NCBI GenBank assembly: GCA_029561955.1
Contig: JAKQWO010000010.1
Span: 1 to 64,000 of the forward strand
DNA from: Candidatus Cloacimonadota bacterium
GTDB lineage: Bacteria; Cloacimonadota; Cloacimonadia; Cloacimonadales; Cloacimonadaceae
Direction of reading: 5' to 3'
DNA length: 64,000 nucleotides
Shown: one piece after another, positions 12,955-30,897 of the stretch
How the letters are laid out: each line of letters starts with the position of its first letter
Position numbering within the stretch: the stretch's first letter is position 1
The notes under the pieces: model-generated
Told to the model about the DNA's origin: nothing
The model's database searches: none
What the model saw: only the letters and a program-made list of their open reading frames with translations
Program-made: the position numbers and the translations under genes

Positions 12955-13679
12955 ATCGAGTCAAATCCAAAAAAGTCTCTGATCAGGGGCGAACGCTCTT
13001 GGCTCAGCTTGTCCAAGCCACCGTAGTACAGCATTTCACCCGCTTCCAAAAACAAAACCATATCGCCCACTCTTTCCAAATTGCGCACGTCGTGAGTGAT
13101 GGTGATCGTGGTGGCAGTTTTGGATTCCACGATGCGGTTGATGTAATACAAAACTTCATCTGCTGTGATGGGATCAAGACCGGAGACTGGCTCATCAAAC
13201 ACGATATAGCGCGGTTCATAGACCAAAGCTCTGGCTATGCCCACCCTCTTGCGCATACCACCGCTGAGTTGCGCAGGAAACTTGTCGCTGGCGTCTTCCA
13301 AACCCACTTCGAATAGCGCTTGCCTTACCTTTTCTTTGGCTCTATCCAAGTCTTTTTCTCCCCTCGTATAAAGCGGTAAAGCCACGTTTTGAAAGACGCT
13401 CAGGGAGTCCAGCAATGCGGCATTTTGAAAGACGATGGCAAACTGGGATTTGTCTGATTCCAAGGCAGTGGACGAGTTTTGATAGATGTCCACATGGTCG
13501 ATGATCACTCTGCCTTGTTGAGGTGGGAAAAAGCCCATCAGGGTCTTGCTCAACACGGTTTTCCCGCTGCCGCTGCGTCCCAAGATGATGAGGTTGTTTT
13601 CATCACCCAGCTCGAAGCTGATGTCCTTGAGGATGGGCTTATCATCCAAGCTCAGGCTAAGACTCTGTACGCTGACCAT
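12951..13679 (-). CDS. MlaF-like ABC transporter ATP-binding protein
   Basis: 242 residues from the ATG at 13679 (MVSVQSLSLSL); an upstream in-frame start at 13784 would add a non-homologous N-terminus overlapping the VanZ gene, so it is rejected. Walker A GRSGSGKT, Q-loop VFQNAALLDSLSV, signature LSGGMRKRVGIARAL, Walker B YIVFDEPVSGLDP and the switch His in TITHD are all present. LSGGMRKRV and the QNAALLDS loop are typical of the MlaF/Ttg2A group, which powers phospholipid transport between membranes. MlaE and MlaD partners are not in this run, so it would have to work with a permease encoded elsewhere. The 5' end overlaps the VanZ gene by 23 bases. Confidence 0.85.
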   Translation of the reverse strand: MVSVQSLSLSLDDKPILKDISFELGDENNLIILGRSGSGKTVLSKTLMGFFPPQQGRVIIDHVDIYQNSSTALESDKSQFAIVFQNAALLDSLSVFQNVALPLYTRGEKDLDRAKEKVRQALFEVGLEDASDKFPAQLSGGMRKRVGIARALVYEPRYIVFDEPVSGLDPITADEVLYYINRIVESKTATTITITHDVRNLERVGDMVLFLEAGEMLYYGGLDKLSQERSPLIRDFFGFDSI

Positions 13680-14034
13680 AATTAAACAACCCCACAACCC
13701 AAGCACCCAGCACGCCGGCAGCATTGGCCAGAAAGTCATAGACACACACATTGCGCCCCAGGATATACCTTTGATGCAGCTCATCGAGTAAAGCGGTTAT
13801 CAACACGCCCAAAACGATCAAAGAGCGCTTGCCCAGAGAGTAGTTCTTCTCTTTCATCCACCGATTGAGCAGGTTGCCCAGCACAAAATATATACCAAAA
13901 TGGGCAAGTTTATCCCAAGAAACGACTGATACTTGGGGCAGATCGGCTGAAGGGATGGAGGAAAGAATCCAGATCATACTCCACCAAACAATCACGAAAT
14001 AGAGGTTGAGATTGCTCTTTTGGGGGCTTGTCAT
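13657..14034 (-). CDS. VanZ-like family membrane protein
   Basis: 125 residues from the ATG at 14034, which overlaps the stop of the upstream gene as ATGA; the longer frame starting at 14121 lies inside that gene and is rejected. Four hydrophobic helices and the VanZ-family landmarks SWDKLAHFGIYFVLG, LLDELHQRYILGRN and VYDFLANAAGVLGA are seen. The conserved acidic and His residues are characteristic, but the biochemical function of the family is unknown; VanZ itself lowers teicoplanin binding. Its location in an envelope operon near PBP1A is consistent with a cell-wall role. Confidence 0.85.
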   Translation of the reverse strand: MTSPQKSNLNLYFVIVWWSMIWILSSIPSADLPQVSVVSWDKLAHFGIYFVLGNLLNRWMKEKNYSLGKRSLIVLGVLITALLDELHQRYILGRNVCVYDFLANAAGVLGAWVVGLFNYGQRTES

Positions 14035-14741
14035 GGATTCACACTCACCAATTCCCAGCTTGCTGACAAGATTCCTCTTGAAACCTTTGCTTTCACCAGG
14101 GTGCCCTTGTTGTCTACCCAAAATTCTGTCTTATTCTTTGAGGAAAAGATGTTGTGTGTGAGTGTGTCTACATAAGGCGGTTTGGTATGTGTTTCGGAAG
14201 AAAAGCTGAAGCTCCAGCCTTGAGCTTGAAAATCCCCCGCTTTGGTGCTGATTTTGGAAGAGCCCAGATACCTTGCCTTCGCTTGCCACATCGAGCCATT
14301 GGCGTCCAGCTCATAGGTGCCAGCCTTTCCTTTGCCATCACAAAACATCATGATGAGCGAAAACAGCTCTCTGGTGCGGTTAGTGATTCGGTATTGCTGG
14401 TTTTGCTTGTCTGAAGTAGTCATTTGGGCAGAGCCTGCCGCATGATTGTAATGCGTATAGTAGTTGCAATTTGTCTTCTTGTTGATGACCTTCCTTTCCG
14501 TGTTGCTGGGAAAGTAGTTTTTATTGTAATTAATGCGGTAGCTATTGTCCACATATGGAAATATCTTGTTATGGATCAGAGACTTAACCCAAATAGACAG
14601 GCTTTGAGGCTCTCTGCTAATCTTCAGGGAAACCACCTCCAAACCCAGGGCTTTTACCTTGTAGTCCATGGTGACAGCCTGTAAGCCGCTCCCCAGCAGG
14701 GCAAACAGCAGCAACAAGATTGTCAGTTTAGCTCTCATCAT
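14031..14741 (-). CDS. DUF3108 exported protein
   Basis: 236 residues from ATG 14741 (or the adjacent ATG 14738). A signal peptide MMRAKLTILLLLFALLGSGL with cleavage near LQA-V precedes a beta-rich domain starting MDYKVKALGLEVVSLKI, which fits the DUF3108 family of periplasmic proteins of unknown function. The longer frame beginning at 14795 lies in the upstream gene. It overlaps the CNNM-type gene upstream and VanZ downstream, so it is part of the same transcript. No catalytic residues can be named. Confidence 0.75.
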   Translation of the reverse strand: MMRAKLTILLLLFALLGSGLQAVTMDYKVKALGLEVVSLKISREPQSLSIWVKSLIHNKIFPYVDNSYRINYNKNYFPSNTERKVINKKTNCNYYTHYNHAAGSAQMTTSDKQNQQYRITNRTRELFSLIMMFCDGKGKAGTYELDANGSMWQAKARYLGSSKISTKAGDFQAQGWSFSFSSETHTKPPYVDTLTHNIFSSKNKTEFWVDNKGTLVKAKVSRGILSASWELVSVNP

Positions 14742-16002
14742 CTTCTTGCGTCTTGGGCAAATGAACATCCACTGTTTTGATGCTCTTGTTATCACTCTCC
14801 ATCACCAGGATCTTAAGCCCATTATCAAGCTCGTGGCTTTCGCCTTTGGCGGGCACGTGGTTGAAGTGTGAAAGCAGATACTCTGCGAGGTTGTCATATT
14901 CCTCGGGGTCTAAATCCGCATCAAACTGCTGGTTGAACTGGCGTATATTGCAGCTTCCGCTCACCGTGAAGTGATTGGGGGATTTCTCCAAGATCTCCGG
15001 CGCTTCCACCCGATCAAATTCATCGTGTATCTCTCCCACGATCTCTTCCAGGATGTCTTCCAGTGAGACAAGGCCTGAAGTGACGCCATATTCATCCACT
15101 ACCACCGCCAGTTGCATCTTGCGCTGTTTGAGCTGGTTCAAAAGCGCTTCAACCTTCATATTTTCGGTCACAAACATAACAGGCCGCATCAATTCAGGGA
15201 TAGGCGTCCTTTGGTTGTCCAAAATGAAATCTTTGACATACACGAGGCCGATGATATCGTCTATCGTTTCTCTAAACACAGGGATGCGGGAATAGCCTGT
15301 TTTGATGATCAATTCACGGAGTTCTGGGATCTCGGCATCCACGTTTATGGCTTGAATCCTGACTCTGGGGACCATGATCTCGCTCACCTGTGCCTCACGG
15401 ATTCTGTATAGGCTGGCCAGAATCTGCTTTTCTCCTTCATCCAGGGAGTTGGCAGAGTTTTCACTGTGAATGAGATTGCGAAATTCATCGCTGGAAATGC
15501 CTCTTTGCACCTTGTCATCCTCGCTATGCTTTTTGGAGACCAGGTTTGAGAGCTGCTCAAACAGCCACACGATGGGGAAGAGCAGCCATTGGAGCACCAT
15601 TAGCGGTATTCCGGCAAATTTGGTGAAGCTGCCAGCCACGGAGAGCGCCAAAAGCTTGGGCATGATTTCGCCAAAAAGCAGGATCAAGCTGGTGGTGATG
15701 ACCACCTGCAAGCTCACCATCCAAGAGAGGTTAAGAGAGGTTTTCTCAGCAATTTGGATCACTAACAAGGTCGCCAATGAAGCCAGTGCCATATTGACGA
15801 AGGTGTTTCCCAAAAGCAGAGTAATGAGAAGCCTGTGAGGTCGCTTCAGCAGCTTCAAAGTGCGTTTCGCTGAAGCAGTTTTCGAGCCTTCAAGCTTTTT
15901 GAGATAGAGCCGTGATAGCGAGAAAAAAGCTACTTCTGATGCCGAAAAAAAGGCCGAAAACATCAGAAGCACGATCATTATAAATGCAGAACCGTCGTCC
16001 AC
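14728..16002 (-). CDS. CNNM/CorC-type transporter with DUF21 and CBS domains
   Basis: 424 residues. Domains in order: N-terminal DUF21 (CNNM) membrane region (about 1-190, four hydrophobic segments with SASEVAFFSLSR), a pair of CBS domains (about 205-330, EIMVPRVRIQAINVDAEI and DDIIGLVYVKDFI), and a C-terminal CorC/HlyC domain (about 340-415). Members export Mg2+ or related divalent ions, or are annotated hemolysin-like; the transported ion is inferred. It lies three bases after ybeY, reproducing the widespread ybeY-corC neighbourhood. Confidence 0.9.
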   Translation of the reverse strand: MDDGSAFIMIVLLMFSAFFSASEVAFFSLSRLYLKKLEGSKTASAKRTLKLLKRPHRLLITLLLGNTFVNMALASLATLLVIQIAEKTSLNLSWMVSLQVVITTSLILLFGEIMPKLLALSVAGSFTKFAGIPLMVLQWLLFPIVWLFEQLSNLVSKKHSEDDKVQRGISSDEFRNLIHSENSANSLDEGEKQILASLYRIREAQVSEIMVPRVRIQAINVDAEIPELRELIIKTGYSRIPVFRETIDDIIGLVYVKDFILDNQRTPIPELMRPVMFVTENMKVEALLNQLKQRKMQLAVVVDEYGVTSGLVSLEDILEEIVGEIHDEFDRVEAPEILEKSPNHFTVSGSCNIRQFNQQFDADLDPEEYDNLAEYLLSHFNHVPAKGESHELDNGLKILVMESDNKSIKTVDVHLPKTQEDDES

Positions 16003-22470: not shown

Positions 22471-24330
22471 CTATTGCAAGCCGATCTGCTCGTAAATCTT
22501 CACTGCCTGGCTACTGCCTTTCACTTTCACCTCGTCCAGGTAGTGCACCTGCACAAAGTCTTCTACCTGAGTATAGGTATATTCGCTGATGATGATATGT
22601 GTTTGGGTGCCATAGTTTGGGCCGATTTCTACTAAGCTGGCTCCGAGTTTGATGGAGTCTCCAATGGCAGTGTAGTCAAAGATCTGCTCGCTGCCAAGGT
22701 TTCCCACCAAAGCTTGGCCGGTATTGATGCCGATGCTGATCTCAAAAAGCTCATGGCCTTTATCACGCCACTTGTCCTGCAGGATGGCAAGTCTGTTTCT
22801 CATTTGCAGTGCGGTTTTGCAGGCGGAAAGGGCATGATTGTCCAGAGATACAGGCGTTCCAAAGAGAGCCATGATCTCACCGCCGCTGAATTTGTCCACA
22901 AAGCCATCGTTGTGGATGATGGTATCAACCATGACGGTGAGATAGTCTTTCAGAATCTGCACAGTTTCTTGCGGTTTATGGTCTTCGGAAAAGCTGCTGA
23001 AGCCTCGGATGTCAGAAAAAAGCACCGTTACTTCTTGGAGCGAGCCTCCAGATTTCAGGCTTTTGGGGTCTTTGAGCAGTTTCTCTACCAGCTCGGGTGC
23101 CATGTATTGCTGGAAGGCTTTGCGGATGAAGCGTTTCTCTTTCAAAGAAGTCAGATATTGCTTTACCAGAGCCACGATGTAGAGGGCAAAGAGCAGCAGT
23201 ATGCTTTGCACGACTGGCAGGATCATGGCTTCGTTGATAAACAACAAATATGCAACCAGATAGAGGGCGGGCGCAAGGATGAGCAGCATGATGGCACCCC
23301 AAATTGGCCTCAAGCGACTCCAGATAAACCACAAAATGATGGCTGAGGCAGCTTGAATGCCCAAATAATACCAAAAATCCAAGTGTCTCAGGTATTTCTG
23401 CTGCAGCACCATCTCGATGAAGTTGGCGTGGATTTCCACACCCGGAGTCTGCGAACTCGAGGAAAAGGGAGTGCTGAAGTAATCGTGCAATTCAGCGGTA
23501 TCAGCTCCAACCAAGACGATTTTATCACGGAAAACACCGCTTTCCATGAGCTTGTAAAACTCGTTTCTTTCATAGCCCATCTGCCCTGGCAGTGAGGTCA
23601 GGGAGTCGTCTATCACGCTGGAAAAAGTATAGTAGGGGAAGTGGTGGGCGGGACCAAAGTAGTTGATCAGCGTTTCGTTATCATTGATGAGCGGGATTTT
23701 CAGGTTGCTTACCTGCAGGTAGCCGTTATTGCTTTGGATGTGTTTGTCCCAGTCCGATTGATACACCCTGCGGTTGGCTAACGCAGCGACACCCAAGGTG
23801 TATTGCGGCTTTTGGGCAAAGTAGTGGTAAAGAGAGTAGCGGCGAATCACCCCATCGATGTCTGTCTTGAGGTTTGTCACACCCCAACTGAGGTTTTGTA
23901 ACATGATAGGATACACGGGAGTTAACAGTTGTTGATGTAAGTCGCTTCCGGTTGTTTCTATGAGCCTGCCTGCAAAGACCACGTTTTGATATTCGGCAGC
24001 GGTCTGTGCCAAGAATTCGTCATCAAAGCTGCTGGTGGATTCGGTAAACTCAAGATCAAATACGATAAGCTTTGCGCCGGCGAGATTGAGGTTGTGGATC
24101 AGCTTGGCATAGTATTCTCTGGGGAAGGGATAGCGCTCATCCAGGGCGTTGAAAGTTGCGTCGTCAATGCTCACGATCACCACTTGATCGCTCAAATCCT
24201 GAGAGCCTCTGAGGCGGAAAAGGCAGTCTTGTGCGAGGTGTTCGATCTTGGCAAAAAAGCCGACCAACATCAGCAGCTTGATGATGGCCAAGATGATCAG
24301 AGGTGTAAGGATCGCTTTTACTATTTTCAT
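22471..24330 (-). CDS. CHASE2 sensor protein with degenerate class III nucleotide cyclase domain
   Basis: 619 residues. N-terminal helix (about 8-26), extracytoplasmic CHASE2 domain (about 30-315, opening VVIVSIDDATFNALDERYPF), three transmembrane helices (about 322-390), a linker and a class III cyclase homology domain (about 430-600). Of the catalytic residues, metal ligand Asp440 (LFSDIRGF), Lys480 and Thr554 (FDYTAIGD) are kept, but the second metal Asp, 44 residues after the first, is Gly484 (FSGGEIMALFG), and the transition-state Asn and Arg are Lys561 and Ser565 (GDSIKLGASLVE). It is therefore probably inactive as a homodimeric cyclase and may be a nucleotide-binding sensor. It lies behind a terminator after the barrel gene. 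AAGGAG precedes the ATG. Confidence 0.88.
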   Translation of the reverse strand: MKIVKAILTPLIILAIIKLLMLVGFFAKIEHLAQDCLFRLRGSQDLSDQVVIVSIDDATFNALDERYPFPREYYAKLIHNLNLAGAKLIVFDLEFTESTSSFDDEFLAQTAAEYQNVVFAGRLIETTGSDLHQQLLTPVYPIMLQNLSWGVTNLKTDIDGVIRRYSLYHYFAQKPQYTLGVAALANRRVYQSDWDKHIQSNNGYLQVSNLKIPLINDNETLINYFGPAHHFPYYTFSSVIDDSLTSLPGQMGYERNEFYKLMESGVFRDKIVLVGADTAELHDYFSTPFSSSSQTPGVEIHANFIEMVLQQKYLRHLDFWYYLGIQAASAIILWFIWSRLRPIWGAIMLLILAPALYLVAYLLFINEAMILPVVQSILLLFALYIVALVKQYLTSLKEKRFIRKAFQQYMAPELVEKLLKDPKSLKSGGSLQEVTVLFSDIRGFSSFSEDHKPQETVQILKDYLTVMVDTIIHNDGFVDKFSGGEIMALFGTPVSLDNHALSACKTALQMRNRLAILQDKWRDKGHELFEISIGINTGQALVGNLGSEQIFDYTAIGDSIKLGASLVEIGPNYGTQTHIIISEYTYTQVEDFVQVHYLDEVKVKGSSQAVKIYEQIGLQ

Positions 24331-24395: not shown

Positions 24396-26807
24396 TCAGA
24401 ACTTCTGTGAGATCGTAAAGCTCCAGGTGAGCAGGTTGTTTTTGAGGTTGGAATCGGCTTTAAATTTCTGTATCCTTTGGTTGATACCGGTGCTGATGCT
24501 CATATTCTGGATGGGTCTGGCATCCAAGCCAAGCGAGATGTAATCAAATGATTGCTCTGTAAGATCACCGGTCAGGTTGACTCTCCTATAGCTGGTATAG
24601 GGGATGATTTTTTCAGCCAGTAAGGCATATTCAGCACGGGCAAACAGGTTGTAGTTGCTGTTGGAAAGGTCAGGGAGAGAAAGCGTGCCCAAGTCCCTGT
24701 CCTGAGCAGCCCTTGAGAACACAAACTGAGTTTTCAGGGGTATTATAACAAGGCGATTGGTCATGGAAACGTTGATGCTATTGGAGAAGTTTTCATACAT
24801 CAGATTGTTATTTGCGCCTTGAAAGCTGTTGCTTGTGCCCATCCTGTAGGTTAGATCCAGTTGTGATGGAAGGACGGGGATCTGCTTGATGTCATATCCC
24901 AGTCCCACAGAGAGGCTGTTTGAATTGCGCTTGTAGGGCACAAACAGGGAGGGATCCTGCAGTCTGCCGTTATTCTCGTTGGTAGTGGTCGTATTGAAAT
25001 AGGAGCCCTTTAGGTATGGGAGGTTTTGGATGCGCAACATCGCTTGGACAAACCAAGAGTCACTGGTCTGCGTTTCAGCACCGGTGAGGGAGAGGTTGTT
25101 CTTGGTGCGTGAGAAGCCACCGTTGAGGTTAAAGTAGCGTCCGAGATAGTATTGATTGCTGACGTTGATCTGCGATGTGTCTTTAGGATACTGGTTGATG
25201 CTGTGGGAGTTGAAGGCGCTTCCCACCGCGGTGTAGCTAATGTTTAGAAGATTCTTAAAGACAATCGTACGGAGGTAGGCTGTGGCGGCTAAGTTGTGTT
25301 TGCTGGGCATGAAGGGCTGCATATTGCGGTTGATCACAAAAAGCTCTGCCAGCTCACCCGGATCGATAAAATCCAAGTCTGGGGCGAGTTGCCCGATATC
25401 TTCCGCCGAAATGGTAGGGTCTATAGTATTGGTATTCAAGAAGCTACCGGCTACTTCTGCACCCAGGACCACACTTTGCTCTGGGAGATGGATCCTCATA
25501 TCCAGGCTCGCTACTATGTTGTCTTCGGGTGTGACGGTATAGATTACATTTCCATTTTGGTCAGTGTATGAGTATATCTCTTTAGACAGCGAGGAAATGA
25601 TATCACGGTTTCTGACGCCATTGATGCCGATGGAGAAGCCCTGCTCGGTGCCGATGCGCAATCTGCCTCCCACCACTTCTTGGCGGAATGTGCCACCGGG
25701 AGCTTGGATGGGCAAGCCGTTATCGTCTGTGCTTGGAAGCTTGGTGCTGCGCACGATTTCACCCGCCATCACTTCCAAGCCCATCTGCCTTTCGTAAAGC
25801 TTGCTGTAGAGGCCATACTGGTTGCGGTTGTTGAGCACGAAGTGGCTTATTTGAGGGGTATAATCGCCGGCGACGATCTCCCAGAAGGGGAGCATAAAGC
25901 CGATGGTGTAGCGGTTTACCCTTTGAGCGTTCTTATCCTCAAGTGAGCTGAAAAGCAGATTGGTATAGGCGGTGGCGATTCCATAATTGATGCTGGCATC
26001 TCCCCAAGCCATCCAATCGTTTTCACTCTCAATGACATCAGTCAAGGTGGCTGAATAGTCGTGATTGTGGATATTTGAGGCAAAGTTGACACTTCCCGAG
26101 TAGATGAAGGGGCTGCGAGCCTTGATCTTGGGTGTTTTGATATTCCAGAGCTGGGATTGCACCTTTTTCCCACCCTTCACGGCGGTGATTAAAGCGCGCA
26201 CCTCTTCACCGTTGGTCTTGCTATCTCTGTAAACCACAGTATTATTAGTGATGGTGCTCGCTTTGGTGACTTCACTGCCGCCTACCCACACTCTGATGCT
26301 GCTGGGGCTGATTTCGTCTGCGATCTCAAAGAAGGAAACGGCGAAAACAAAGGCATCGGATTCAAATTCACCTTCGGTGCTGAGCAGGATAAAGCCTTCT
26401 TCCAGCTTGCCACTCATAGGGCCTGGGGTGAGGGTGTAAGGGCCATTTACCTCAAATTCAAGCGGCAAAATCTCCACGCTCTGGTCGTTGAGCACAAACT
26501 CGTAATAGTATCTGACATCTTTGTCTTTGATCTGAGAGCTTTTGAGAACCGTCTCCCAGAAGAGTGATCCCGGGGCTTGACGTCTCATTTCCTGGGTGTG
26601 GTAGATGGTCTCCTGTGCGTAGCTGTAGCGCAATCTTACGGTTTTGACATCATTGGCACCAATGTTCACTTCCACTCGCATCGTAACATTCTCCCCGAAG
26701 GTGTAGGTCATCGGAGCCTGATTTTGAGCGGTGATCACACGAGTGGTCTGAGCCATAGCTATGATGGATAAGCTGAGTAGTATGAGGCAGATTATGATTC
26801 TTTTCAT
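24396..26807 (-). CDS. Outer-membrane beta-barrel protein with N-terminal beta-sandwich
   Basis: 803 residues from ATG 26807 (GGAGTGAT upstream); a longer frame from 26861 overlaps the fecR-like gene. Signal peptide MKRIIICLILLSLSIIAMAQ, an Ig-like beta-sandwich (about 25-130: YTFGENVTMRVEVNIGANDV), a second sandwich (to about 240), then a long series of alternating strands typical of a barrel, ending ...WSFTISQKF with the terminal Phe used as BAM recognition signal. Not assignable to a named transporter family. It lies 13 bases after the FecR gene, and its position between a FecR protein and a CHASE2 sensor suggests that it is part of an envelope-sensing module. Confidence 0.8.
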   Translation of the reverse strand: MKRIIICLILLSLSIIAMAQTTRVITAQNQAPMTYTFGENVTMRVEVNIGANDVKTVRLRYSYAQETIYHTQEMRRQAPGSLFWETVLKSSQIKDKDVRYYYEFVLNDQSVEILPLEFEVNGPYTLTPGPMSGKLEEGFILLSTEGEFESDAFVFAVSFFEIADEISPSSIRVWVGGSEVTKASTITNNTVVYRDSKTNGEEVRALITAVKGGKKVQSQLWNIKTPKIKARSPFIYSGSVNFASNIHNHDYSATLTDVIESENDWMAWGDASINYGIATAYTNLLFSSLEDKNAQRVNRYTIGFMLPFWEIVAGDYTPQISHFVLNNRNQYGLYSKLYERQMGLEVMAGEIVRSTKLPSTDDNGLPIQAPGGTFRQEVVGGRLRIGTEQGFSIGINGVRNRDIISSLSKEIYSYTDQNGNVIYTVTPEDNIVASLDMRIHLPEQSVVLGAEVAGSFLNTNTIDPTISAEDIGQLAPDLDFIDPGELAELFVINRNMQPFMPSKHNLAATAYLRTIVFKNLLNISYTAVGSAFNSHSINQYPKDTSQINVSNQYYLGRYFNLNGGFSRTKNNLSLTGAETQTSDSWFVQAMLRIQNLPYLKGSYFNTTTTNENNGRLQDPSLFVPYKRNSNSLSVGLGYDIKQIPVLPSQLDLTYRMGTSNSFQGANNNLMYENFSNSINVSMTNRLVIIPLKTQFVFSRAAQDRDLGTLSLPDLSNSNYNLFARAEYALLAEKIIPYTSYRRVNLTGDLTEQSFDYISLGLDARPIQNMSISTGINQRIQKFKADSNLKNNLLTWSFTISQKF

Positions 26808-26820
26808 GATGATCACTCCA

Positions 26821-27501
26821 TTAGTATTCAATCTCAATGAACCTGGTGTAGCCGTCTTCATCGATCATAGGGATTCTGAGGATGTTGGGCGTGTATACAG
26901 CCAAAGCTTCTTGTTCTGCCGCATCCAAGCCTTGAATGTCTTCCGGTGTGGTTTCACGCACGCTCAAGTCCATGTACCTGTCCACAAAAGCAGTCTGTCC
27001 GGCCGTGACATCAGCTTTATCACCAGTTTGAGATACTTCCACATTCACCGTGCCATCGGTGACGATGTAAGTAACTTCGCCTTCTTCGTTTACTATGGTG
27101 ATAAACTGCGTTCCATTCACGGATGCCATGGTGGTGGGTGTGCTGACTCTCACGCTCCCTTTGCTGTTGGGGTTCACTTTGGTGAAGACACGTCCGGAAT
27201 TGACTTTAATGGTTTTATCCAAGAGTTTATCTCTACGTGATGCGCTCACCACCACGTAGGAGTTGGCAAAGACCTTGATGGAGGAAGAGTCGTCAATGTA
27301 TTTGTAGGCAGCGAAGGATTGGTTTCGGGTGTGAATCTCATCGAAGTCGTTGATGCTATCGCCCACTTTGAACTTAATGTTTTTGCCGCCTCTAAAGAGG
27401 TCGACCTTTCCCTTGGCGGCGGTCACAAGTGCCACTCCAGTAGCGTCTAAAGCTGTGAATATCAGGGCGATTAGCAAGAGAGTAAAGATAGTCTTTTTCA
27501 T
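26821..27501 (-). CDS. Exported FecR-domain protein
   Basis: 226 residues. Signal peptide (1-20, MKKTIFTLLLIALIFTALDA) and a FecR domain: VALVTAAKGKVDLFRGGKNI, a GDSINDFDEIHTRNQSFAAY strand pair, SGRVFTKV and VSTPTTMASVNGTQF. FecR itself relays TonB-dependent signals to a sigma factor, but this protein has no cytoplasmic or membrane segment and no sigma factor neighbour, so it belongs to the free exported FecR group, often found near CHASE2 proteins. The C-terminal part (about 180-226) is acidic. Spaced 9 bases after the upstream secreted-protein gene. Confidence 0.88.
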   Translation of the reverse strand: MKKTIFTLLLIALIFTALDATGVALVTAAKGKVDLFRGGKNIKFKVGDSINDFDEIHTRNQSFAAYKYIDDSSSIKVFANSYVVVSASRRDKLLDKTIKVNSGRVFTKVNPNSKGSVRVSTPTTMASVNGTQFITIVNEEGEVTYIVTDGTVNVEVSQTGDKADVTAGQTAFVDRYMDLSVRETTPEDIQGLDAAEQEALAVYTPNILRIPMIDEDGYTRFIEIEY

Positions 27502-27510
27502 GGTTCCTCC

Positions 27511-28644
27511 TTAGTTTCCTATTCTGATCTCCACATCTTTTTCTGTGATCTCTCTGAGCAATTTGATGGCTTCATGGCCGCTGTAGTTTCTACCATTGAG
27601 GATCACGTTTCCGACGGGGTTAAACCCTTGGACAAACAGAGCATTGATGGCGCTATCGTTCAAGTTCATCAACAGGGTCTTGAGCTCGCTTTCATTTTCC
27701 ACGGTGGTGCCGTCTGTTACATACTGAAATACAAACCATTCACTCTTGAGGCTCTCGGAATCCTTAGGCTTTTTGGAGGATGAGAATGGGTTGTTCTCGT
27801 TGTATTTATCCAGCGTGATTTGCCAGGCATAATAGCATCCATTGTTGAAGGGAAGGTAGTCTGCAAACATGAAGTTGGTGATCAAATCCTGTGCATCTTG
27901 ATCACTCGCCGTTTCGTAAAAGAGCCTTCCGGTAAGAGCCACCGAGGTTTGAGTGGGTGGCAGGTTTTGCGGAAACTCTCTGATGGTGAGCCAAGCTGCT
28001 CTGTTGAATCCGGTTGTTAGCGCGCTCCACATGAAGCTCACGGGTTTCATGTTTACTTGAGGAGGCGTGCTGCCTACCTTCTGACCCGGAGAAAGCAGCA
28101 AGATAGGGCCTGTGTTTTTGATGGTAATGGTGAAGAAGATAGATGGCTCATATCGTTTAGCAGTGACGGCTCTCAGGCTGACTTCTGCCTTGATGACACC
28201 ATCGGGAAAATAGCCCGAGAGCAGAGCCTGCTTGAGTGTGGGGTCTATATTGACAATATCGTTTATGCCCGTATAGCCACCGCTAAGCAAGGTAAAGTCA
28301 CTACTCAAAGCATCGGTAAATAGCTCCCCATTGGTAAGCATGATCGTCTCGGAAGGGGCGATTTCCTCTCTGGATTGAAACTCTGCCTCCAATACCCGCA
28401 TACCATTCCAGGTTAGCTTAACTTTCATCATAAGCTTATGGGAAGAGGGGCTAATGTTTGTGATGGTCAAGGTGGTTAAATGGGTCTGTCCCGCTGCATT
28501 ATCTGGATCGAAAGTAGCAGCGCTAAGCTCATTTAATGATATGGCATTTGGTGTGAATGCGCCTGAAAAGACGTTGTTGCCCAACACCTGCATAGGTATC
28601 AAGCCTAACATCAGCAGTATGATAAGCTTCGGTAGGTGTTTCAT
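27511..28644 (-). CDS. Secreted protein of unknown function
   Basis: 377 residues with a signal peptide (about 1-22, ending VLGN). I recognise no named family. Visible features are a beta-sandwich-like N-terminal part (HLTTLTITNISPSSHKLMMK), a second strand-rich region with PVSFMWSALTTGFNRAAWLT and a QITLDKY segment resembling interface parts of extracellular binding domains, and a charged C-terminal end (LREITEKDVEIRIGN) with GHEAIKLLREITEKD that looks like a small alpha-beta unit. It begins 12 bases after ddl and is 9 bases before the FecR gene, so it is probably an extracytoplasmic partner of the FecR and barrel proteins. Confidence 0.7.
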   Translation of the reverse strand: MKHLPKLIILLMLGLIPMQVLGNNVFSGAFTPNAISLNELSAATFDPDNAAGQTHLTTLTITNISPSSHKLMMKVKLTWNGMRVLEAEFQSREEIAPSETIMLTNGELFTDALSSDFTLLSGGYTGINDIVNIDPTLKQALLSGYFPDGVIKAEVSLRAVTAKRYEPSIFFTITIKNTGPILLLSPGQKVGSTPPQVNMKPVSFMWSALTTGFNRAAWLTIREFPQNLPPTQTSVALTGRLFYETASDQDAQDLITNFMFADYLPFNNGCYYAWQITLDKYNENNPFSSSKKPKDSESLKSEWFVFQYVTDGTTVENESELKTLLMNLNDSAINALFVQGFNPVGNVILNGRNYSGHEAIKLLREITEKDVEIRIGN

Positions 28645-28656
28645 TGTTCCTCCAAT

Positions 28657-29586
28657 TTATACATTGTGCATTATCATTTCTAATAGTTTGGCAAAATCAA
28701 CTCCCACGGTCTTGGCGGCCATGGGCGTGAGACTGAGGGACGTCATGCCGGGCAGGGTATTTGCTTCCAAAAACCAAGCTTGATTTCCATCATAGAGAAA
28801 GTCTACCCTGGCATAGCCCTTGAGATCAAAAGCATGCCACAGGCGTGTAGCGTAGACCTGCAATAGACGTGACAGCGCTGGGTCTATCTCAGCAGGAGCC
28901 ACGTAGACGGTTTTCCCTTCGGTGTACTTATTGGTATAATCATACCAGCCTTCCACAGGCTTTATTTCCACCACGGGCAGTGCTTTGCCTTCCAAGACGG
29001 TGACGGCAAACTCCGAGCCAGCGATGTATTTCTCTATCAAGACGGTGTTTGACTCCCTGAAAGCCAGCTCTACTGCAGGTTTTAGCTCCCGGATCTGCTT
29101 CACTACGGAAACTCCCACGCTGGAGCCTGCATCGTTGGGTTTCACTACCACCGGCAGTCCCAAGGAGCCCAAGAAGCCCATCAAGTCCTCATCTGTATTG
29201 TAGTCTACAATCATGTTTTCACGCATGATGATAAAGTCTGCTGTGGGTATGCCCATATCTCTGGCGACCAGCTTGGAGATATACTTGTCCATCGTGATGC
29301 AGCAAGCTCTGGAGCCGCTTCCCGTAAAGGGGATATGCGCCAGCTCAAAAGCAGCCTGCATCTTGCCATTCTCTCCCTCGCCTCCGTGCAAGCCGAAGAA
29401 GACTAAGTCTGCGCCACCGGACTTGATGGCTGCAATCAGTTCTGAAACTGTGGGAAAGTCTCGAGGGTCGAGCTCAAACACCTTGTAGCCCGAATCTCTA
29501 AGTTGAGCGGAAACAGCAGCTCCGCTCTTGAGTGAGACCTTACGCTCTGATGAGTTGCCGCCCTTCAATACACATATAGTTTTCAT
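28657..29586 (-). CDS. ddl: D-alanine--D-alanine ligase
   Basis: 309 residues, normal for Ddl. ATP-grasp enzyme joining two D-Ala for peptidoglycan precursor synthesis in the cytoplasm. N-terminal LKGGNSSERKVSLKSG, GLHGGEGENGKMQ, TGSGSRACCITMDK, PVVVKPNDAGSSVGV and the C-terminal FLEANTLPGMTSLS are family hallmarks. Its setting, downstream of a response regulator and a FemAB-like gene and upstream of the FecR module, rather than in a mur cluster, is unusual and hints that the module is concerned with the cell wall. Confidence 0.95.
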   Translation of the reverse strand: MKTICVLKGGNSSERKVSLKSGAAVSAQLRDSGYKVFELDPRDFPTVSELIAAIKSGGADLVFFGLHGGEGENGKMQAAFELAHIPFTGSGSRACCITMDKYISKLVARDMGIPTADFIIMRENMIVDYNTDEDLMGFLGSLGLPVVVKPNDAGSSVGVSVVKQIRELKPAVELAFRESNTVLIEKYIAGSEFAVTVLEGKALPVVEIKPVEGWYDYTNKYTEGKTVYVAPAEIDPALSRLLQVYATRLWHAFDLKGYARVDFLYDGNQAWFLEANTLPGMTSLSLTPMAAKTVGVDFAKLLEMIMHNV

Positions 29587-29627: not shown

Positions 29628-30530
29628 TCAACTGCTGATGCGGAAGAACAACTGGAGCTGATGCCCCATTGCGCCTTTGAATCTCGCCACATCCGGCACA
29701 TTTGCACCGCATAAATCCAAGACCTTGCAGCGGGATTTCAAGGTTTCGATCAGCATATGAGTATGCCAGAGGCTGACACCCTTGCTCAGCTCCTCTTCCG
29801 CTGTGCTGCGGAACAAGGAGTAAGCGATCTCTGCATCACCCTGTAGCATAATATTAATACTCACAATCTTGCCATCCCTGCACACATTATGCTGCCGGAG
29901 CAAACCGCTTTTCGCCAGATCCTCAATGAAGTTCTTGATCTTGTCGTCATCCTTTACAGGTTGCATTCCTTTGCGTCCAACCATCGCCTTGGTCAGCTCA
30001 ATATAGGCAGAAACATCCAGGAATTCCTCAAAAGAATAGCCTTCCTTGGAGGCGTTCCTCAGCTTCCTGCGTTCTTTGCCCAAAGGCTGTGTTTCCACCT
30101 CGTAATCATGGATATAGGTATAAAACGGCTGCGTCTTGATTTTATTCCAGATAAATCCTCTCACATCATAGTTATGAGGGGCTAAGGTGACACTAAATCT
30201 CTTGTAGTGCTTTTTGAGGAAGAGAGCAAGATCAGAGCAGATGCGCAGCTCATCCAAAGCGTTGCGTGCAGGCGAGGTGCCAAAGGGATGATTGAAGTGC
30301 ACTCCCTGATAATAGGCTCCCAAAGCGGGTACCAACCTCACAAAACCCAGATGTTTCTTCTCATACAGGGGCATTTGCGCTACTAACTCTTCGCCTTTAT
30401 ACACATTTGCCAGCTTGGGCTCAAGACCGTTAAAGGCAGCAGCAGCATTCATCAAATCCGCTTTACACCACAGAGGCGTTGTGGGAGCTTGATCTGAGGA
30501 CTTGGGACTAATCAGGACGATCTCATGCAT
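29628..30530 (-). CDS. GNAT / FemAB-like acyltransferase (BioF2-like)
   Basis: 300 residues from ATG 30530 (a GTG at 30536 is also possible). The pattern fits the acetyltransferase-6/FemAB-like superfamily of two GNAT folds: an N-terminal fold with MPLYEKKHLGFVRLVPALGA, then RRKLRNASKEGYSFEEF, an ISVNIMLQGD-like strand (actually IVSINIMLQGDAEIAYSLFR) and the family-end motif FKGAMGHQLQLFFRI. Relatives add amino acids or acyl groups to cell-wall precursors or glycolipids. The substrate is unknown, but adjacency to ddl suits cell-wall modification. It begins about 10 bases after the response regulator gene. Confidence 0.72.
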   Translation of the reverse strand: MHEIVLISPKSSDQAPTTPLWCKADLMNAAAAFNGLEPKLANVYKGEELVAQMPLYEKKHLGFVRLVPALGAYYQGVHFNHPFGTSPARNALDELRICSDLALFLKKHYKRFSVTLAPHNYDVRGFIWNKIKTQPFYTYIHDYEVETQPLGKERRKLRNASKEGYSFEEFLDVSAYIELTKAMVGRKGMQPVKDDDKIKNFIEDLAKSGLLRQHNVCRDGKIVSINIMLQGDAEIAYSLFRSTAEEELSKGVSLWHTHMLIETLKSRCKVLDLCGANVPDVARFKGAMGHQLQLFFRISS

Positions 30531-30540
30531 AAGCACAGTC

Positions 30541-30897
30541 TCACACCATCTTCTGCACGATATTGAGCAATTCTATCAGTTGGAAAGGCTTGATGATATA
30601 GCTTGACGCACCCTCCAACATGGCATTGTAGACCAAGTCAATCGTGGGGAAGCCGGTCATAATCAAACACTGGAGATCAGGGTCCTGCCGCAGCAACTCG
30701 ATCATCAAATCTATGCCGCTCATACCAGGCATGGATTGGTCTATGATGGCAAGCTTATACTTCCCTACACTGAATTTCGCCAAAGCAAGGGATGCGTTTT
30801 CAGCCGTATCTACCCCATAGCCGTTTGCTTTCAGGAAGTCCGCAAGAACCTCTCTGAGCAAGCGGTCATCGTCTACTATCAAAATATACGCATCCAT
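30541..30897 (-). CDS. Single-domain response regulator (CheY-like)
   Basis: 118 residues: a receiver domain with no output domain. Acidic pocket Asp9-Asp11 (VDDDRLL), phosphoacceptor Asp53 (IIDQSMPG), Thr81 (MTGFP) and Lys103 (IIKPF) are all present, so phosphorylation by a histidine kinase is expected. The kinase is not in this window. It must act through protein contact. It is first in a tight run leading to the FemAB-like, ddl, secreted, FecR and barrel genes. Confidence 0.92.
   Translation of the reverse strand: MDAYILIVDDDRLLREVLADFLKANGYGVDTAENASLALAKFSVGKYKLAIIDQSMPGMSGIDLMIELLRQDPDLQCLIMTGFPTIDLVYNAMLEGASSYIIKPFQLIELLNIVQKMV

Follow-up and report, generated by a model that had tools for sequence, protein, structure and literature searches.

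A CHASE2-linked class III cyclase in a Cloacimonadota bacterium has probably lost catalysis recently, within one lineage

Introduction

In Sinorhizobium meliloti, the outer-membrane receptor NsrA is a functional partner of the CHASE2 cyclases CyaD1, CyaD2, and CyaK (PMC13001267, PMC7529298). Campylobacterota contain gene clusters that combine a CHASE2 adenylate cyclase with a FecR outer-membrane protein, a TPR protein, and a phosphodiesterase (PMC9239204). In class III dimers, as stated for the C1/C2 pair, the metal-binding Asp residues come from one chain and the residues for the substrate and the transition state from its partner, and the mammalian C2-C2 homodimer, which is devoid of the metal residues, is inactive (PMC4174876).

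Here, we analyze a CHASE2 protein with a class III cyclase-like domain, encoded in a stretch of 64,000 nucleotides (hereafter, the window) on contig C22 of a Cloacimonadota metagenome-assembled genome (MAG; 2.13 Mb, 81 contigs, 99.5% complete). Our literature search for Cloacimonadota combined with adenylate cyclase returned no match. Like the S. meliloti system, the window pairs an inner-membrane protein of CHASE2 and class III cyclase domains with a predicted outer-membrane beta-barrel, which we liken to NsrA as a putative functional partner; it differs in that its cyclase chain lacks three catalytic residues and its barrel is encoded in the same operon. The Campylobacterota clusters likewise place a CHASE2 cyclase beside a FecR-domain protein, whereas Cloacimonadota have a separate FecR protein and barrel, both encoded downstream of a response regulator and a D-Ala-D-Ala ligase-like (Ddl) gene. 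In both sequence and fold, the nearest solved cyclase domains are those of CyaB (Pseudomonas aeruginosa, 3r5g) and Cya2 (Synechocystis, 2w01), which, unlike the window protein, keep the second metal Asp as well as the Asn and Arg. The mammalian C2-C2 pair resembles the window protein in keeping the cyclase fold while missing catalytic residues. In mammalian C1-C2, by contrast, the partner half completes one site, whereas residues of both half-sites are missing from the single window chain.

Results

Domain architecture and active site

The open reading frame starts with ATG and contains no internal stop codons. Its domains and catalytic positions are as follows (all on the minus strand).

22471..24330, minus: CHASE2–transmembrane–class III cyclase-like protein, 619 amino acids (open reading frame and Pfam)
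23326..24288, minus: CHASE2 sensory domain, residues 15-335, almost every invariant position retained (Pfam, alignment, and AlphaFold)
22501..23040, minus: class III cyclase domain, residues 431-610, with a degenerate active site (Pfam and alignment)
23011..23013, minus: Asp440, first metal ligand, retained (GAC; translation and codon alignment)
22891..22893, minus: Lys480, substrate-specifying, retained (translation and codon alignment)
22879..22881, minus: second metal Asp replaced by Gly484 (GGT; the closest relative has GAT; translation and survey)
22669..22671, minus: Thr554, substrate-specifying, retained (translation and codon alignment)
22648..22650, minus: transition-state Asn (AAC) replaced by Lys561 (AAA; translation and survey)
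22636..22638, minus: transition-state Arg replaced by Ser565 (AGC; the second-closest relative, L008, has CGC and the closest, L007, has GGC, encoding Gly; translation and survey)

Pfam searches identified CHASE2 (PF05226, 179 bits) and Guanylate_cyc (PF00211, 67.2 bits against a cut-off of 21.9) at these residues. The latter match spans positions 6-176 of the 183 in the profile, which places the domain in the class III cyclase family by sequence, and the succession of CHASE2, transmembrane helices, and output domain is that of CHASE2 sensors. In the AlphaFold model of the window protein, which was built on an alignment of 29 rows, the CHASE2 part reaches a pLDDT of about 90, three helices lie at residues 319-409, and the active-site segments of the cyclase fall below a pLDDT of 50.

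Catalytic positions were assigned by alignment to the solved cyclases CyaB (3r5g), Cya2 (2w01), and CyaC (1wc0). A competent class III homodimer carries two metal-binding Asp residues, a transition-state Asn and Arg, and a substrate-specifying Lys together with Thr or Asp. Only the last pair (K480 and T554) is complete in the window protein, which has one metal Asp (D440) with Gly at position 484, and Lys and Ser at the two transition-state positions. The original prediction had listed the same three retained and three substituted residues and taken the protein for a pseudo-cyclase; translation and the alignment to the three solved enzymes bear out this assignment, and with one metal Asp and both transition-state residues replaced, a pseudo-cyclase is also our best reading of the sequence. 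The cyclase domain is very probably inactive, with no or almost no cyclic nucleotide synthesis to be expected.

A conserved operon joins the cyclase to a FecR protein and a predicted outer-membrane barrel

The cyclase gene ends a run of genes, listed here from its nearest partner upward.

24396..26807, minus: predicted outer-membrane beta-barrel, 803 amino acids, conserved operon partner (gene order and fold search)
26821..27501, minus: FecR-domain protein (PF04773), conserved operon partner (Pfam and gene order)
27511..28644, minus: 377-amino-acid protein (orf377), part of the operon in several genera, without a match in Pfam (Pfam and gene order)
28657..29586, minus: Ddl-like gene (identified by eye), a conserved neighbor on the upstream side (sequence and gene order)
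29628..30536, minus: 302-amino-acid conserved operon gene (orf302; gene order)
30541..30897, minus: single-domain response regulator (PF00072), head of the conserved gene run (Pfam and gene order)

The complete run, from the response regulator through orf302, Ddl, orf377, FecR, and barrel to the CHASE2 cyclase, is present in the window and at ten further loci in five genera. The barrel gene adjoins the cyclase gene on two more, short contigs, and does so in nearly all family genomes that contain both, so that the CHASE2 cyclase, the FecR protein, and the barrel form a cluster of conserved adjacency. The model of the barrel protein contains many long strands, and its closest solved folds are the Mtr complex, ushers, porins, and TonB-dependent receptors, all at low TM-scores, which supports the fold class and not a particular family. 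Barrel and FecR genes are intact in the window genome. A broken barrel was considered for L007 and ruled out, the reading frame there being intact. No phosphodiesterase was recognized in the Cloacimonadota gene run. Read from its gene order, the operon appears to fit the plan of the known CHASE2-cyclase receptor clusters.

The ancestral protein would have been an active CHASE2 class III cyclase ending the conserved operon. The barrel and the FecR protein would have passed a signal across the periplasm to the CHASE2 domain, which in turn would have set the activity of the cytoplasmic cyclase homodimer.

Catalytic residues are lost in one lineage

A CHASE2 cyclase match was found in 38 of 50 family genomes at a loose threshold. 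Besides the window protein, 29 distinct family orthologues were aligned (records L036 and L037 duplicate L007 and L008). One of these, L029, stops short of the third motif, and 27 of the 28 that cover all six catalytic positions are intact at every one. The exception is L007, the closest relative (81% identity), which has lost only the Arg (R565G) and keeps D484 and N561. The next relative, L008 (79% identity), has an intact site. We surveyed 89 relatives from the whole phylum, a few of which, among the most distant and longer proteins (e.g. L108-L111, open frames of 695-726 amino acids), may be paralogues. Position 484 is Asp without exception (89/89). Of the 87 sequences with a residue at position 561, 85 have Asn, one has Ser, and one has Thr; at position 565, likewise covered by 87, the counts are 85 Arg, one Gly, and one Asp. 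Each of these two positions is a gap in two sequences. Against this background, the three substitutions in the window protein are more than chance.

The three substitutions are therefore not conserved among orthologues, and only L007 shares one of the lost positions (565). They are specific to one lineage, an outcome that the original prediction had itself named as speaking against its reading. A conserved family of pseudo-cyclases with a shared inactive ancestor is ruled out by the same survey. The predicted catalytic loss is recent, confined to one lineage, and partly common to one sister species. In the protein tree, the window protein groups with L007 (support 0.994) and then with L008. 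Cyclase identity to the outgroup L011 falls along this series from 80.4% (L008) through 75.3% (L007) to 66.5% (window), and that of the CHASE2 domain stays at 50-52%. Loss in the window lineage was probably stepwise: the Arg, gone in the nearest species too, would have been lost first, and D484 and N561 later. The change at position 565 may, however, have arisen twice, once from CGC to AGC and once from CGC to GGC, which leaves the order of steps unproven.

Some genomes elsewhere in the family lack the gene. In genus g7 (G016-G028), the CHASE2 cyclase is absent from 11 of 13 genomes, which indicates that it is dispensable there. Some g7 genomes with no CHASE2 cyclase match (G020, G021, G024, and G025) retain a barrel match. 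A second group of CHASE2 cyclases (about 710-755 amino acids, 29-35% identity; for example G010:C99 and G001:C1:1340508) is widespread in the phylum and absent from the window genome.

Selection is relaxed but persists

Branch-specific dN/dS ratios (omega) were estimated with a GY94-like, F3x4 codon model, with 9 taxa in the domain analyses and at most 6 in those of whole genes; omegas of ancestral branches that reached their bounds were disregarded as numerical artefacts. On the window branch, dN/dS is raised about fourfold over the whole gene (0.247 against 0.063 elsewhere, 2ΔlnL 33.8), in the cyclase domain (0.276 against 0.067, 2ΔlnL 17.9), and in the CHASE2 domain (0.193 against 0.064, 2ΔlnL 12.0). 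An omega of 1 for the cyclase domain on this branch is rejected (2ΔlnL 9.2). General fast evolution of the window genome was ruled out, as nine of eleven neighboring genes (MarR, OsmC, Trx, orf377, Ddl, orf302, RR118, rSAM, and RadA) do not have a raised dN/dS on this branch (2ΔlnL below 2). The FecR and barrel genes give values of 3.7 and 7.9, respectively, which suggests that relaxation may touch the whole module.

Positions that are otherwise invariant are broken in the window protein at 8 of 73 sites in the cyclase domain, three of them catalytic, and at 2 of 51 in CHASE2 (P 0.14 for the difference between domains, not significant), with no such breaks in the transmembrane and linker part. 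The ratio of cyclase to CHASE2 branch length in the protein tree is 2.06 for the window (rank 6 of 83) and 1.93 for the intact L008, so that it hardly separates the two. Had the whole gene been fully neutral over 18% of the branch, the fraction implied by omega, about 4.4 stop codons would be expected, and the same calculation for the cyclase domain alone gives 1.7; none is seen in either (P 0.013 and 0.19). The open frame of the whole gene argues that selection probably still maintains the protein, though more weakly than before. The view in the original prediction that the gene is not simply decaying has less force than it first suggests: the CHASE2 part is indeed intact, yet its dN/dS is raised on the window branch as well.

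Broken active sites in other lineages

Two other lineages in the survey have altered catalytic residues. L095, from genome G083, carries D440N and N561S, and L112, from genome G084, carries D440S, K480R, N561T, and R565D. Both are full-length CHASE2 cyclases, with genes at L116 (G083, 13617-15464) and L117 (G084, 244-2112). Counting the window, each of the three lineages has its own set of replacements, a pattern that resembles independent loss and does not suggest a shared new function.

The operon of G083 is devoid of the barrel gene, and in G084 Ddl directly adjoins the cyclase gene. No barrel match was found in genome G083 or in G084, the latter only 73% complete. Among genomes with an intact cyclase site, the barrel is present in 78, absent in 3, and unknown in 4. 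There is a hint that broken sites go with barrel absence (P 0.027, with unknowns counted as absent, the window clade as one barrel-positive lineage, and the sequences related).

Other cyclases in the genome

The window genome encodes further cyclases. On contig C36, a complete class III cyclase forms a fusion with an AAA ATPase-like region (VTILFADIKGFT, VDKYIGDAIMALFG, DFTVYGPEVNLASRM), and contig C67 encodes a twin-domain, soluble-type cyclase. Together with two matches to cNMP-binding domains, these genes indicate that cyclic-nucleotide signaling as such has probably not been lost. Contig C67 also encodes a beta-helix-like protein (C67:9500-11970, L041:1-2466), whose gene contains seven copies of a 67-nucleotide unit about 171 nucleotides apart. 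The unit encodes a near-constant stretch, TPTLTYIRVRNSTQTSR, between variable stretches, and its core pattern, with up to 3 mismatches allowed, occurs genome-wide only in this gene.

Discussion

We consider it reasonably probable, from the sequence comparisons, that the window protein is a catalytically dead cyclase in a signaling arm under relaxed selection, derived from an active ancestor by recent, lineage-specific loss. Selection would have relaxed, but not vanished, on the window protein and more weakly on its barrel partner. Loss in one lineage, set against an Asp at position 484 in all 89 relatives, points to a gene that is being switched off and not to a new kind of sensor, and the signaling arm would then have lost its use.

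In a rival reading, the protein is a true pseudo-enzyme that has given up catalysis but retains some other task, such as holding the barrel/FecR module as its membrane partner or serving as a switch that another protein reads. The open frame, the purifying selection that persists in both domains (omega 0.19-0.28, below 1), and the full frames retained in G083 and G084 despite their broken active sites all agree with it, as does the pattern at invariant cyclase positions, where 62 of 67 non-catalytic residues are retained but 3 of 6 catalytic ones (Fisher P 0.015, a post hoc test because the gene was picked for its catalytic loss). Selection is relaxed, however, and neither new conserved sites nor a conserved new motif appeared, the replacements being G484/K561/S565 in the window, N440/S561 in G083, and S440/R480/T561/D565 in G084. 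We therefore regard a true pseudo-enzyme as possible, though unlikely. A broader idea is that the barrel-FecR-CHASE2 complex of Cloacimonadota also performs another, non-catalytic task, which would have allowed repeated loss of the active site (in the window and L007, in G083, and in G084) while the protein was kept; this strikes us as doubtful.

Readings in which activity persists fare worse. Some class III enzymes tolerate replacement of single canonical residues, and the window protein retains D440, K480, and T554; we know of no homodimer, however, that tolerates loss of a metal Asp plus both transition-state residues, and the conservation of the second metal Asp in every relative makes a still-active cyclase with an unusual active site very unlikely. 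The original prediction had also raised a heterodimeric sensor, in which another chain, such as the C36 or C67 cyclase, would supply the missing residues of a half-active dimer. With one metal Asp, the Asn, and the Arg all missing from the window chain, neither shared site would be complete; the window protein is the only CHASE2 protein found in the genome, and the C36 and C67 cyclases are fused to other domains and have counterparts where the CHASE2 cyclase is intact. We consider such a heterodimer highly improbable. An error of sequencing or assembly would be conceivable for a single MAG in which each of the three losses is one base change from a relative's codon, yet random errors would hardly add five breaks at other invariant cyclase positions to the three catalytic ones and leave those of the transmembrane and linker part unbroken, nor raise omega over the whole branch, and the nearest species is altered at one of the same sites; we regard this explanation as highly improbable.

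The window cyclase is otherwise ordinary, but it is a good natural series for study. The barrel-FecR-CHASE2-cyclase operon is widespread in Cloacimonadota, and if activity has been lost as we propose, L008, L007, and the window would be successive stages of losing catalysis within one genus, with the operon still in place. The series would offer a test of whether the CHASE2 and barrel part can act without cyclic nucleotide synthesis.
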